Part shown: positions 48,564-55,201 of the stretch, one piece after another
How the letters are laid out: every line of letters starts with the position of its first letter
How positions within the stretch are numbered: position 1 is the stretch's first letter
Origin: an uncultured Lachnospiraceae bacterium
GTDB lineage: Bacteria > Bacillota > Clostridia > Lachnospirales > Lachnospiraceae
NCBI GenBank assembly: GCA_902779575.1
Contig: CACZBW010000004.1
Location: 248,001 to 312,000, forward strand
DNA: 64,000 bases
Direction: 5' to 3'
Notes under the pieces: generated by a model
What the model saw: the letters and a program-made list of their open reading frames with translations, nothing else
What the model was told of the DNA's origin: nothing
The model's database searches: none
Made by a program: the position numbers and the translations under genes

Positions 48564-49475
48564 ATGGCGAAGTATGTATTCAAGCGAGTGATCCTTGCCA
48601 TCGTCACGATCTTCATCGTATGCGCGATTACCTTTTTTACGATGAACGCGATCCCGGGCGGACCATTCAATGGTGAGAAGGCGACTTCCCCGCAGGTTAG
48701 GGAGACGCTGGAGAAGCGTTTTAATCTTGACAAACCGGTCGGGGAGCAGTTTGTGATTTATATGAAGAATCTTCTGCACGGAGATTTCGGCATCTCCGCG
48801 AAGACCGGACGCGATATCGGAGTGACGATCTCTTCCAAGTTCGCTGTATCCGCGAAACTTGGCATCTTTGCCGTCATCGTTGCCCTGATTCTGGGCGTAT
48901 TTTTCGGAAGCATCGCGGCTCTGATGAGGAACCGGTGGCCGGACCGCCTGATCATTTTCATGTCGACCCTGTTTACATCTCTGCCCAGTTTCGTTCTGGC
49001 GACCTTTCTCCTGGTCGTCTTCTCGGTCAGGCTCGGCTGGGTGAAAGCCTGGAGCCCGACCCACCAGAGCCTGGTCCTGCCGGTTCTGTCCCTTGCGGCT
49101 TATCCGGCGGCTTATATTACCCGTCTGACCAAGACGAGCATGCTGGACGTCCTGGGGCAGGATTACGTAAGGACTGCCCGGGCAAAGGGCGTCGCCCAGG
49201 TAAAGGTGCTTTTTGTTCATACGCTGCGCAATTCCCTGATCCCGGTTGTAACTTATGTGGGGCCGATGATCGCTTCTGTCCTGACTGGATCGCTTGTTGT
49301 TGAGAACATCTTTACAATCGGCGGTCTCGGGGCGGAATTCGTCACCAGCATCACCAACCGTGATTATCCGATGATTATGGGCGTTACGATCTTCCTGGCG
49401 GTATTCATGGTAACCATGAATCTGATCACGGACATTGTCTACAAGCTGATTGATCCGCGGATCAATCTGGACTGA
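48564..49475 (+). CDS. oppB: Oligopeptide ABC transporter permease OppB
   Basis: A 303-residue inner permease with six membrane helices. The N-terminal FKRVILAIVTIFIVCAITFFTMNAIPGGPF and the later DYVRTARAKGVAQVKVLFVHTLRNSLIP (the EAA-type loop that docks on the ATPase) are characteristic of OppB/DppB. AAGGAGGAG precedes the ATG. It opens a tight oppB-oppC-oppD-oppF series. Confidence 0.93.
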   Translation: MAKYVFKRVILAIVTIFIVCAITFFTMNAIPGGPFNGEKATSPQVRETLEKRFNLDKPVGEQFVIYMKNLLHGDFGISAKTGRDIGVTISSKFAVSAKLGIFAVIVALILGVFFGSIAALMRNRWPDRLIIFMSTLFTSLPSFVLATFLLVVFSVRLGWVKAWSPTHQSLVLPVLSLAAYPAAYITRLTKTSMLDVLGQDYVRTARAKGVAQVKVLFVHTLRNSLIPVVTYVGPMIASVLTGSLVVENIFTIGGLGAEFVTSITNRDYPMIMGVTIFLAVFMVTMNLITDIVYKLIDPRINLD

Positions 49476-49488
49476 GAAGGAGGAAAAG

Positions 49489-50571
49489 ATGGCAAACGAA
49501 GCATATGATGTGAATAAAATGCCAGAGAAAAACCCGCTTTCCCTCCAGATCGATCTGAAAAAGTTCGAAAAAGCAACGGAAGACGAGAAGAAACAGGCGG
49601 ATATCATGAGCGAGTCCACCTCCTTCTTCCGGGATGGAATGAAGCGGCTGCGCAGGAATCCTCTGGCTATGATGAGCATTGTGGTTCTGGTGATCATTAT
49701 CGCCATGATCATTGTGGTGCCTTCCGTGGTGCCCTACAGCTATTCCGACATTATCACCGTGAACGGCAAACGCGACAAGACCGCGACCAATATGAGCCCG
49801 TTTACCTATTCAAAGCTGGAGCAGCAGTACATCGACGAAGGCGGGAAGGTTTTCCCCCATATCATGGGAACGGATGAGCTTGGCAGAGATTATTTTGTCA
49901 GAGTCATCTACGGAACCAGGATTTCTCTTGTTGTCGGCGTATTTGCTTCCATGATCGTGCTGGTCATAGGCGTTCTGTACGGGTCGGTTGCCGGCTATTT
50001 CGGCGGCAAGGTTGACCTGATCATGATGCGGATCGTCGACGTGATCTATTCGCTGCCCGACCTGTTAATGATTATCCTTCTCTCGGTCGTCCTGAACGAG
50101 GTCATCAATGTGTCCGGCAACAGCCTGCTGGGACGGCTCGGGACGAATATGATTTCTCTGTTCCTGGTCTTCGGACTGCTGTACTGGGTCGGAATGGCGA
50201 GGCTTGTCCGCGGCCAGATCCTGACCATCAAGCAGAACGAGTATGTGCTCGCGGCGAGGGTTTCAGGGGCCGGCAGCGGCAGGATCATCCGCAGGCATAT
50301 CCTTCCCAACTGCATCAGCGTCATTATTATTTCGGCGGCGCTGCAGATTCCGTCCGCCATTTTCACGGAATCCTTCCTGAGCTTCATCAGTCTGGGCGTA
50401 AAGGCTCCCATGCCGTCCCTGGGTTCGCTGGCCAACGCGGCGCGTTCGGGAGTGACGACATATACCTATAAGCTGATCTTCCCGGCTGTCATGATCGCCC
50501 TGATCACACTGGCCTTCAACCTGCTGGGAGACGGCCTGCGCGACGCATTTGACCCGAAACTGAGGAGGTAA
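49489..50571 (+). CDS. oppC: Oligopeptide ABC transporter permease OppC
   Basis: About 360 residues. A hydrophilic N-terminal tail of some 60 residues precedes FFRDGMKRLRRNPLAMMSIVVLV, the usual OppC start. MGTDELGRDYFVRVIYGTRISL and the EAA loop ILTIKQNEYVLAARVSGAGSGRIIRRHILPN follow. ATG 49489 is after GAAGGAGGAAAAG. OppC pairs with OppB to form the membrane channel. Confidence 0.93.
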   Translation: MANEAYDVNKMPEKNPLSLQIDLKKFEKATEDEKKQADIMSESTSFFRDGMKRLRRNPLAMMSIVVLVIIIAMIIVVPSVVPYSYSDIITVNGKRDKTATNMSPFTYSKLEQQYIDEGGKVFPHIMGTDELGRDYFVRVIYGTRISLVVGVFASMIVLVIGVLYGSVAGYFGGKVDLIMMRIVDVIYSLPDLLMIILLSVVLNEVINVSGNSLLGRLGTNMISLFLVFGLLYWVGMARLVRGQILTIKQNEYVLAARVSGAGSGRIIRRHILPNCISVIIISAALQIPSAIFTESFLSFISLGVKAPMPSLGSLANAARSGVTTYTYKLIFPAVMIALITLAFNLLGDGLRDAFDPKLRR

Positions 50572-52669: not shown

Positions 52670-55135
52670 ATGAAGAGGCGCTTAGTGACACTGGTTGCTG
52701 TTGTCTCTCTCGCTGCCATGAGCCTTGCGGGCTGCAGCAGCAAGAAGGCAAAAGAAACTGAGCCGGCAACGACTGCCCAGGTTCAGGAGACCAAGGCTGA
52801 GGAGAAGGAGACAACCGCTCCTGAGACAACTGCTCCTGAGACGGAAGCGGCGGCTGTGGAAGAAGCGGCAGCGGCATTGCAGACCGAGGCAGAGGCGGCA
52901 GCCGAAGCAGTGAAGGCAGTAGAGACTGAGGCAGAGGCGGCAGTCGCGGAAGCAGCGGCGGCAGTTGAGACCGAGGCAGAGGCAGCTGCAGACGCAGTGA
53001 AGGAAGCAGCAGCGGCGGCAGAGACCGAGGCGGAAGCGGCAGTCGAAGCAGCGGCAGCGGCAGTTGAAACCGAAGCGGAAGCGGCAGCAGACGCAGTGAA
53101 GGAAGCGGTTGCGGCAGCAGAGACCGAGGCGGAAGCGGCAGCAGACGCAGTGAAGGAAGCGGTTGCGGCAGCAGAGACCGAAGCGGAAGCGGCAGCAGAG
53201 ACCGAGGCGGAAGCGGCAGTTGCGGAAGCAGCAGCGGCAGTTGAGACCGAAGCGGAAGCAGCAGCCGACGCGCTGAAGGAAGCGGTTGCGGAAGCCGAGA
53301 CCGAGCTGGAAGAAGCAGTCGGTGAAGTGGCAGTGGCAGTTGAGACCGAGGCTGAGGAAGCAGTCGAGGCAGTGAAGGATGTGATCGCGGCCCTTGCCGG
53401 CGAGACCGAAGCGGAAGCAGTTGATGCCGAGACCGAAGCAGAGGCTCTTGATGCCGAGACCGAAGCGGAAGCAGCTGACGCCGAGACAGAGGCAGAGGCG
53501 GCTCCGAGCGAACTCTCCAGCGCGGCAGCTCCGGAATGGGACAGCTACAATGAGAAGATCGCGAAGATCTACACTGAGACAGATCCGGCCAAGCGTGAGG
53601 CTCTGATGCATGAAGCGGAAGACCAGCTTATGGATACCTGGGCTGTCGTCCCGATCTACTACTACAACGATATCTATATGCAGACCGCTGATATCGAGAA
53701 CATTTACTCCAACGTATTCGGATTCAAGTATTTCGCGTATGCGACTGCTCCGGACAACGAGATGAACGTCAACCTGGCCAGCGAACCGGACCATCTTGAT
53801 CCTGCTCTGAATTCTTCTGTTGACGGCGCATGCCTGGCAATCCTCGGATTCTCCGGCCTGTACGCCTATGACGCGGAAGGACAGCTGGTTCCGGAACTTG
53901 CCGAGAAAGAACCGGAAGTTTCCGAAGACGGCCTGACCTATGTCTTCACCCTCAGAGACGGTCTGAAGTGGTCTGACGGCGAAGATCTGGATGCCAATGA
54001 CATCGTCTACAGCTGGAACCGTTTCTATGATCCGAACACCGCTGCAGATTACAGCTACCTGATTGACTCCAGCAATATCGGTGTGAAGGAAGACGGCACT
54101 CTGGATATCGAGGCTTCCGAAGACGGAAAGACCTTTACCGTGCATCTGACCAATCCGTGCGCATATTTCCTTGATCTGTGCGCATTCCCGGCATTCTATC
54201 CGGTACCGGAGCAGGCAGTCACCGAGGCGGATCCGGACGGCTCCAATCCGGGCGCATGGTCTCTTGAAGCAGGCTTTGTGACCTCCGGTCCGTTCACCTG
54301 CACCGAGTGGAAGCACAACGAGTCCATGGTCTATGAGAAGAACCCGAACTACTGGAACGCGGACGCGGTTTCTCTTGAGAAGATCAACTTCATGCTGAGC
54401 GCGGACGACACCGCGATCTTCAACGCGTACAAGGATGGTTCCCTGCAGTTCATCGATACGGTACCGACCGATGAGATCGCGAACGTGAAGGATCAGGATG
54501 ACTTCTACATCGTCCCGAACCTTGGAACCTACTATGTCGGATTCAACGTAAATTCCGAGCTCTTTGACGGTATGACCCCGCAGCAGGCTGCTGACATGAG
54601 ACATGCGCTCTGCCTGCTGATCGACCGCCAGTACATCGTTGACACAGTCGGACAGACTGGACAGGAACTGGCAAGCACTTTCATCCCGACCGGCATGGCT
54701 GACGGAAACGGCGGCGAGTTCCGCGCGAACGACGACGATTACACCTATCCGGATGAGGAAGCAGTCGGTTACTACGATGCGTCCGCTACCGGAGCGGATA
54801 TGGTTGACGAAGCAGTCGAGCTTCTGAAGGGCGCCGGTTTCGAGTTCAATGACGACAATACTCTGTCCGATGAAACTCCGATCCATCTGACCTATCTGAC
54901 CAACGACAGTGACGCTCATGTCAAGATTGCAGAGTCCATGCAGCAAGATTTCGCCCTCATCGGCGTGACCATGGATATCGAGAGCAAGGATTGGCAGGTT
55001 GTCCTGAACGAGAGAAAAGAAGGACAGTTTGACGTCGCCCGCGAAGGCTGGCTGGCAGATTACAACGACCCGATCAACATGCTTGAGATGTGGCTGACCA
55101 ACTCCGGCAACAACGATATGCAGTTCGGAAGATAA
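52670..55135 (+). CDS. oppA: Peptide-binding lipoprotein OppA, circularly permuted, with long Ala/Glu/Thr tract
   Basis: An 821-residue extracellular solute-binding protein of family 5. The lipoprotein signal ends LAGC (Cys22). Residues 23-285 are a low-complexity tract built from ETEAEAA units. Residues 287-360 (PEWDSYNEKI, DPAKREALMHEAEDQLM, VVPIYYYNDIYMQ, NVFGFKYFAYAT) are what normally forms the C-terminal end of OppA. They are followed directly by what normally starts the mature protein (MNVNLASEPDHLDPALN, from 365). The protein ends at GNNDMQFGR, exactly where the moved segment would belong. So the order is permuted, with nothing essential missing. N- and C-terminal parts both lie in lobe I of this fold, so folding is plausible. 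ATG 52670 follows AGGGAGG. Misassembly is the main alternative. Confidence 0.9.
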   Translation: MKRRLVTLVAVVSLAAMSLAGCSSKKAKETEPATTAQVQETKAEEKETTAPETTAPETEAAAVEEAAAALQTEAEAAAEAVKAVETEAEAAVAEAAAAVETEAEAAADAVKEAAAAAETEAEAAVEAAAAAVETEAEAAADAVKEAVAAAETEAEAAADAVKEAVAAAETEAEAAAETEAEAAVAEAAAAVETEAEAAADALKEAVAEAETELEEAVGEVAVAVETEAEEAVEAVKDVIAALAGETEAEAVDAETEAEALDAETEAEAADAETEAEAAPSELSSAAAPEWDSYNEKIAKIYTETDPAKREALMHEAEDQLMDTWAVVPIYYYNDIYMQTADIENIYSNVFGFKYFAYATAPDNEMNVNLASEPDHLDPALNSSVDGACLAILGFSGLYAYDAEGQLVPELAEKEPEVSEDGLTYVFTLRDGLKWSDGEDLDANDIVYSWNRFYDPNTAADYSYLIDSSNIGVKEDGTLDIEASEDGKTFTVHLTNPCAYFLDLCAFPAFYPVPEQAVTEADPDGSNPGAWSLEAGFVTSGPFTCTEWKHNESMVYEKNPNYWNADAVSLEKINFMLSADDTAIFNAYKDGSLQFIDTVPTDEIANVKDQDDFYIVPNLGTYYVGFNVNSELFDGMTPQQAADMRHALCLLIDRQYIVDTVGQTGQELASTFIPTGMADGNGGEFRANDDDYTYPDEEAVGYYDASATGADMVDEAVELLKGAGFEFNDDNTLSDETPIHLTYLTNDSDAHVKIAESMQQDFALIGVTMDIESKDWQVVLNERKEGQFDVAREGWLADYNDPINMLEMWLTNSGNNDMQFGR
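52853..53506 (+). repeat. In-frame repeat tract in oppA (54-bp and 27-bp units)
   Basis: The first part repeats an 18-residue unit of the type ETEAEAAADAVKEAVAAA; the last part repeats a nine-residue unit ETEAEA(V/L/A)DA four times. Eighteen residues equal five helical turns, so a long single helix or stalk is plausible. Confidence 0.9.
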
Positions 55136-55159
55136 GATTCAGATCTGACGAATGAGATG

Positions 55160-55201
55160 ACTGCCGTGACCGGCTGAGAAACCGGTCACGGCAGTTCTTT
55201 A
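55160..55201 (+). terminator. oppA terminator
   Basis: Perfect 14-base stem ACTGCCGTGACCGG / CCGGTCACGGCAGT with an 8-base loop, followed by TCTTTA. Confidence 0.9.

Follow-up and report, generated by a model that had tools for sequence, protein, structure and literature searches.

OppA and DppE are substrate-binding proteins of family 5 (cluster C) that serve oligopeptide ABC importers. In the parts of the structural papers drawn on here, OppA-type proteins are described as two-lobed, with lobe 1 made of domains I and II, domain I being assembled from three pieces of the chain, and lobe 2 formed by domain III (PMC11192437, PMC5736914). The limits given there for domain III are residues 297–582 in AliD (PMC11192437) and 286–503 in BbOppA4 (PMC5736914). 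The present analysis concerns an oppA gene of an uncultured Lachnospiraceae bacterium, located in a stretch of 64,000 nucleotides (assembly GCA_902779575.1, contig CACZBW010000004.1, positions 248,001 to 312,000), referred to below as the window. Judged from its sequence, this gene encodes an OppA-type protein that is truly circularly permuted, and it stands beside intact oppBCDF; very probably its product works as the substrate-binding protein of the adjoining OppBCDF peptide importer, in a naturally permuted form.

Among the binding proteins of ABC importers, a natural circular permutation has been described for TpMglB-2 (Tp0684), a glucose-binding lipoprotein from Treponema pallidum classified as 'Type Ic / Cluster Bc', and the portions of that report used here mention the class in Gram-positive gut bacteria as well and suggest tethering as a possible reason for it (PMC4990184). 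TpMglB-2 has the type I (cluster B) sugar-binding fold, with part of the N-lobe moved to the C-terminus, and switching back and forth between chain orders is not mentioned in those portions (PMC4990184). The window protein does not have this fold, as both its sequence matches and its fold matches are to family 5. The domain-swapped dimer of AliC, in which the lobes are exchanged between two chains, retains the ordinary chain order in the published account as available to us (PMC11192437). No natural permutation of a family 5 or OppA-type protein was found in the literature searched, outside which lay most subscription papers and all preprints. TpMglB-2 is the only precedent found, in another class of binding protein, and the unusual part of the present case is the recurrence of the permutation and the switching of order.

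In the protein translated from 52670-55135, the C-terminal 74 residues of an ordinary OppA (residues 287–360) stand ahead of the body (residues 361–821), which ends with NNDMQFGR. The Pfam model SBP_bac_5 matches residues 406–815 with 276 bits against a curated cut-off of 32.4, placing the protein in family 5, while the NCBIfam equivalog model for OppA, NF011684, gives 208 bits against a cut-off of 947. In a phmmer comparison with solved structures, residues 364–817 correspond to chain positions 21–450 of OppA from Bacillus subtilis (PDB code 8are) and residues 294–356 to positions 458–520, that is, two pieces in swapped order. The moved piece by itself matches positions 452–512 of DppE (8ay0, E 4e-7) and 459–520 of OppA (8are, E 1.3e-5). 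The first-pass annotation, made from the letters alone, had proposed that residues 287–360 are the displaced C-terminus of an OppA/DppA-type protein, and these separate alignments confirm it; its remark that the protein stops at QFGR, where the moved piece would continue, agrees with the translation and with the ends of the homologs. Set against the family 5 proteins (8are and the OppA proteins of Salmonella and E. coli), the window protein is homologous over its whole length in two pieces, is predicted to have the same fold, and shares the operon partners and a conserved W..D pair. It differs in that the C-terminal segment of domains III and I, although present, has been moved, so that these 74 residues precede the mature N-terminus; the usual linear order is replaced by pieces swapped at one cut, and the chain ends lie in a loop of lobe 2.

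The position of the cut was obtained from a phmmer alignment to BbOppA4 (4gl8), in which query residues 83–529 (numbered 283 below the full protein) lie on chain positions 33–445; the alignment was extended by nine residues and the chain index was taken as the residue number. Together with the domain limits quoted above, this places the cut at about BbOppA4 residue 455, inside domain III, and divides the moved 74 residues into approximately 48 from lobe 2 and approximately 26 that are the last ones of lobe 1 (domain I). Because the cut is inside domain III, the new chain ends, and hence the membrane tether, are on lobe 2 and not on lobe 1. The argument that a new join is tolerable since both terminal segments belong to lobe 1 is therefore correct in part: the old N- and C-termini, now joined, are both in domain I according to the published limits, but the new N-terminus is on lobe 2.

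An AlphaFold2 model of window residues 284–821, calculated with 77 relatives, has a mean predicted local distance difference test score (pLDDT) of 93.4 and a predicted template modelling score (pTM) of 0.90. Averaged over blocks of ten residues, the C-segment and the join score 90–96 (model residues 71–80 have a mean of 96), and the blocks just past the join score 87 (residues 81–90) and 83 (residues 91–100). OppA structures come first in a Foldseek search with this model, with a best E of 7e-35 and TM-scores of 0.70–0.72 of the query over ~470–485 sequential columns. For 8are (E 7e-35, TM 0.70 of the query, 479 columns) the length of the sequential alignment fits the body alone. Structure prediction had been suggested as a check in the first-pass annotation, and the permuted chain is indeed predicted to fold confidently, with OppA structures as its top matches. 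Residues W511, D514, D517 and P518 (model numbers) are invariant in all 78 rows of the alignment. In AliD, as the consulted part of that study describes it, a W..D pair with the same spacing clamps the N-terminus of the peptide (PMC11192437). The pair is found in the permuted proteins, where its equivalence to that of AliD is based on the spacing of the motif and not on superposition.

The exported chain would begin on the surface of lobe 2, in a loop flanked by the stretch that ends with NNDxQFG[RK] and the helix that starts with W..YD. It would first form the end of domain III and the final portion of domain I, then cross a short linker located where the two ends of an ordinary OppA lie, continue through the whole body and stop in the loop of origin. 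Fold, peptide cleft and docking surfaces alike would be those of OppA, with the chain ends and the tether moved to lobe 2. The permuted protein probably binds peptides and feeds OppBCDF, and the moved tether may matter.

The permuted order seen in the window, called type 1 below, is conserved (loci and genomes are cited by handles beginning with L and G). Among close relatives collected from named records, the best 80 of the 150 found and thus a sample of close kin, the C-segment stands before the body in 79 (two of them cut by a contig end), and L108 has the ordinary order. A second set of loci (L010–L028, partly from the same genomes) contains 17 permuted genes out of 19, L026 and L028 being ordinary. 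Of 397 genomes from the window's family, at least 27 (the window's own among them) give one continuous match over the permuted order, with no more than three candidates scored per genome and matches of E 1e-60 or better followed; the window's own genome and the other 26 were rechecked with the separate pieces. Two of the 27, G621 and G704, are single-contig genomes, and the gene of G704 holds a stop. A search for homologs with the same order, also suggested at the outset, was thus successful, and because the order is conserved among relatives a chance origin of it is excluded. The permuted set includes two cultured Blautia, Blautia caecimuris DSM 29492 (L042) and Blautia sp. Marseille-P3201T (L099), as well as metagenome-assembled Lachnospiraceae, Oscillospiraceae and one record titled Treponemataceae (L101). 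The new C-terminus is equally constant: among 101 distinct permuted proteins, 89 stop precisely at the G[RK] of a QFG[RK]-type motif, 11 have 1–42 further residues and one (L022) is broken. No second C-segment was detected at E 1e-3 in any locus examined. When 398 genomes spread evenly over the phylum were searched, the window's own was the only full type 1 match among the matches listed, and type 1 therefore looks confined to some families. The permuted OppA of L211 (G759) has only ~37% body identity to that of the window and sits basally in the clade on a long branch; it may be an early or a separate case of type 1.

Two further permutations occur in the OppA family. Type 2 is represented by two OppA genes of genome G049 (L109, 4463–6193 and 11198–12940). 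Residues 303–555 of the first align with 29–279 of 6npo and residues 65–299 with 309–541, which puts the cut approximately where the chain passes from lobe 1 into lobe 2. The lobes of AliC are exchanged between chains in the region of this cut, according to the part of the source at hand (PMC11192437). The two genes lead two tandem opp operons of the order A-B-C-D-F (L109, 4463–15342), each with a differently diverged type 2 OppA. Type 3 comprises nine loci (L146, L148–L151, L153–L156) from at least 9 of the 398 phylum genomes; a tenth candidate, L145, is interrupted by a stop and is not among the nine. In L148, residues 161–524 lie on 11–362 of 8are and residues 2–158 on 366–522, and the cut, between 8are residues 362 and 366, is in domain III, ~90 residues before that of type 1.

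Types 2 and 3 belong to the same family as type 1 and follow the same principle: in each of the three, two pieces of one domain are swapped and the ends meet at one loop. They differ from type 1 in their cut sites and in belonging to separate lineages. A tree of 43 rows keeps the three types apart; a joint clade of types 2 and 3 is rejected (p 2e-6), a single clade of type 3 is not (p 0.26), and type 3 may have one or two origins. All three cuts are in or at the edge of domain III, which is not by itself significant, since this domain makes up about two fifths of the chain. The solved chain of PDB entry 3o6p, of 229 residues, aligns with types 2 and 3 on their domain III side only and is apparently lobe 2 alone.

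Within the window's own subfamily, trees were built from rows hand-chosen for spread, one of them taking 110 of 169 rotated proteins. The smaller full-length and body trees contain 40 permuted and 8 ordinary rows, the larger body tree 39 permuted and 24 ordinary ones, and the OppF tree 57 rows, as 6 of those 63 have no usable OppF. The ordinary-order L026 and L108 nest inside the permuted set with supports of 99/96 and 99/95 at full length and of 99/91 and 97/95 for the body alone (48 rows). The larger body tree adds ordinary-order relatives at 51–61% body identity (L199, L200, L202–L209) and others. It requires at least 7 order changes, 5 of them forced by well-supported branches, and can be explained by 7 changes with reversals or by 9 gains without reversal. 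The OppF tree of the same operons also requires at least 7 changes, only 2 of which are forced. The permuted L106 and the ordinary L208 are sisters on both the body and the OppF trees (99/85, 94/94). Since both orders interdigitate on the body and OppF trees, the chain order must have changed repeatedly during the descent of the operon. A single clade of all permuted rows was tried and rejected on the body (p 0.0015 at full length, 7e-5 for the body only) and on OppF (p 1.2e-5); the rejection is weaker when only L026 is held outside (p 0.075 at full length, 0.013 for the body) or only L108 (0.040 and 0.028). A single event standing by itself does not hold in view of types 2 and 3 and of the repeated changes in the type 1 subfamily. 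There is a reasonable likelihood that the OppA fold is an order-labile family, with three separate permutations at three loops, cuts in or at the edge of lobe 2, an N-terminal tether that leaves lobe 1, and at least 5 switches in the window's subfamily.

In the first-pass annotation, the proposed rearrangement placed the new N-terminus on a long stalk. From lipobox to C-segment the window protein has 264 residues, compared with 10–67 in the other 44 of the 45 permuted open reading frames with a recognised lipobox; given these short linkers, a role of the stalk in the mechanism was rejected. By a crude pattern, a lipobox is present in 59 of 83 permuted type 1 genes (the window uncounted), in 1 of 9 type 3 genes and in 9 of 10 close ordinary-order genes, the tenth of which, L205, has LTACG once its start is corrected. 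Absence of the lipobox accompanies permutation in this set, although its rows share ancestry and the pattern is a coarse one. The permuted OppA proteins of L022, L023, L025, L027 and L030–L034, several of them from the window's genus, show no lipobox, unlike the window protein. Among the type 3 proteins, L149 has the sole lipobox, and L146, L148, L150, L151 and L153–L156 have a seemingly ordinary non-lipoprotein signal peptide that ends before KPLP.

Several of the results weigh against a working, repeatedly permuted lipoprotein in the window's subfamily. Most permuted loci are metagenome-assembled, and two permuted oppA genes have an in-frame stop (L180/L221 of G704, and L022 of G005). The model of L108, intended as an ordinary-order control, is poor (pLDDT 76.8, pTM 0.66) and was set aside. 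Support for the nesting of L108 falls to 83/98 and 81/87 in the larger body tree, and its place is unresolved on the OppF tree. Furthermore, 24 of the 83 type 1 genes, at least three of them doubtful (L060, L086, L097), show no lipobox by this crude pattern, and because part of the permuted genes have no recognisable one, relocation of the tether is not the general purpose of the permutation. The swapped order could be imagined as an error of assembly, the C-segment truly lying downstream of the body and having been misplaced with the help of the repetitive stalk, in a genome that consists of 75 contigs. The relatives have the same order in 79 of 80 records and in the single-contig G621 and G704, and they have it with linkers far shorter than the stalk; moreover, the ends are residue-identical in most of the distinct proteins and a hairpin follows the stop of the window gene. 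This shared order in effect refutes an assembly error, which was rejected as next to impossible. It is also very improbable that the gene is a decaying or non-functional copy, as the stops in L022 and G704 might suggest, considering that its frame is open with many invariant columns, that it holds the sole SBP_bac_5 match in the window, that intact oppBCDF adjoins it and that its predicted fold is confident.

Of the possible paths of a switch, the likeliest would begin with the gain of a second C-segment at the opposite end of the gene and finish with loss of the original one. A gene in which both ends carry the C-segment would join both orders through working proteins. The first-pass annotation had proposed such a tandem duplication with loss of the outer parts. 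The loci examined included no double-ended gene, and no remnant of the C-segment above chance was found downstream of 104 permuted entries, the best scoring 5.2 bits versus 2.4 in codon-shuffled controls; the proposal is to that extent unsupported. A two-way exchange through a double-ended intermediate, arising from duplication or from a crossover of a permuted gene with an ordinary one, with later loss of either copy, has nonetheless close to an even chance of being correct. It needs the fewest changes on the trees, and the short tails past QFGR in L107, L100 and L105, in which a Trp recurs at the same distance, could be what is left of the second copy. The tails of at least 8 residues in L074 and L193 have no such Trp, and the missing intermediate and remnants also speak against it. 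Alternatively, and somewhat more tentatively, type 1 may have been gained many times from ordinary-order ancestors at one hot-spot loop, without reversal. The cost of this on the body tree, 9 gains against 7 changes, is a small difference, and the cut loop itself is suggestive. It has no spacer in typical OppA (L116, L028), 18–26 extra residues in an ordinary-order sister clade (L118, L119, L212, L214, L215, L223) and 8–11 in ordinary-order members inside the clade (L026, L108, L199, L200, L202–L209), whose inserts often end with (S/A)APxW and resemble the start of the permuted C-segment. A loop lengthened ahead of its opening would be a reasonable first step. However, ends that are identical to the residue in 89 of 101 proteins are not expected of independent cuts, unless dictated by the structure.

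As a rule, a natural circular permutation has to be inferred from a single ancient event whose intermediates are gone. Here, a common transporter family of culturable gut bacteria shows three separate permutations and close relatives that differ in order, so that the origin, cost and gain of permutants become testable. If the switching is true, nature would have supplied a set of permutants that convert into one another, and extant sisters of different order, for instance permuted L106 and ordinary L208, would allow route and selective value to be tested. The permuted set extends the precedent of TpMglB-2 and can be used to test the tethering idea, as stated in the consulted part of that paper (PMC4990184), against which it partly speaks. 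Permuted oppA genes could also be mistaken for truncated or fused proteins, as family models of the ordinary order miss the moved end.

The features of the locus are collected in the table. The four genes directly upstream of the permuted oppA, named as an intact oppBCDF already in the first-pass annotation, are all full length by Pfam and NCBIfam alignment, with NCBIfam scores below the curated cut-offs. The exact order B-C-D-F-A is found in 61 of 154 loci, and many of the others either run into a locus end or come from other lineages.

Table. Coordinates in the window of the permuted oppA, its parts and the adjoining opp genes
Feature	Position	Strand	Basis or remark
oppB, permease, 303 aa	48564..49475	+	NCBIfam Opp3B-like, E 2e-95, below curated cut-off; Pfam BPD_transp_1
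oppC, permease, 373 aa from the TTG given, true start may be further in	49450..50571	+	Opp3C-like, E 4e-91, below cut-off; OppC_N
oppD, ATPase, 334 aa	50578..51582	+	OppD-like, E 1e-118, below cut-off; ABC_tran and oligo_HPY
oppF, ATPase, 333 aa	51579..52580	+	OppF-like, E 3e-121, below cut-off; ABC_tran and oligo_HPY
Permuted oppA (type 1), 821 aa	52670..55135	+	Sole SBP_bac_5 match inside the window
Putative lipoprotein signal peptide through lipobox LAGC (Cys22)	52670..52735	+	Pattern match only
Ala/Glu/Thr-rich repetitive stalk, ~260 aa, confined to the window's lineage	52736..53518	+	Tandem repeats 52862-53487; linker lengths
Moved C-segment, residues 287-360, from the end of domain III and the final part of domain I of ordinary OppA	53528..53749	+	Structure matches; AlphaFold2 model residues 4-77, pLDDT blocks 90-96
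New join: ordinary C-terminus (..YFAYAT), short linker, ordinary mature N-terminus (NVNLASEP..)	53735..53764	+	Translation; AlphaFold2 model
OppA body, residues 361-821, new C-terminus at QFGR	53750..55132	+	Pfam; structure matches
RNA hairpin of 15 pairs 3' of the oppA stop, likely transcription end	55159..55196	+	Folding compared with shuffles

As the only protein in the window with an SBP_bac_5 match, the permuted OppA is presumably the receptor of the adjoining importer. The hairpin that follows it has a folding energy of -32.6 kcal/mol (z -5.9), and none of 200 shuffles was as low; a scan for consensus terminators did not pick it. A scan with a defence library gave nothing. Another open reading frame with an SBP_bac_5 match is located elsewhere in the window's genome (G000:C5:79705-81375, L112). 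It is listed with 814 aa and has the ordinary order, and a gap of ~400 bases between profile positions 60 and 61 suggests an insert.

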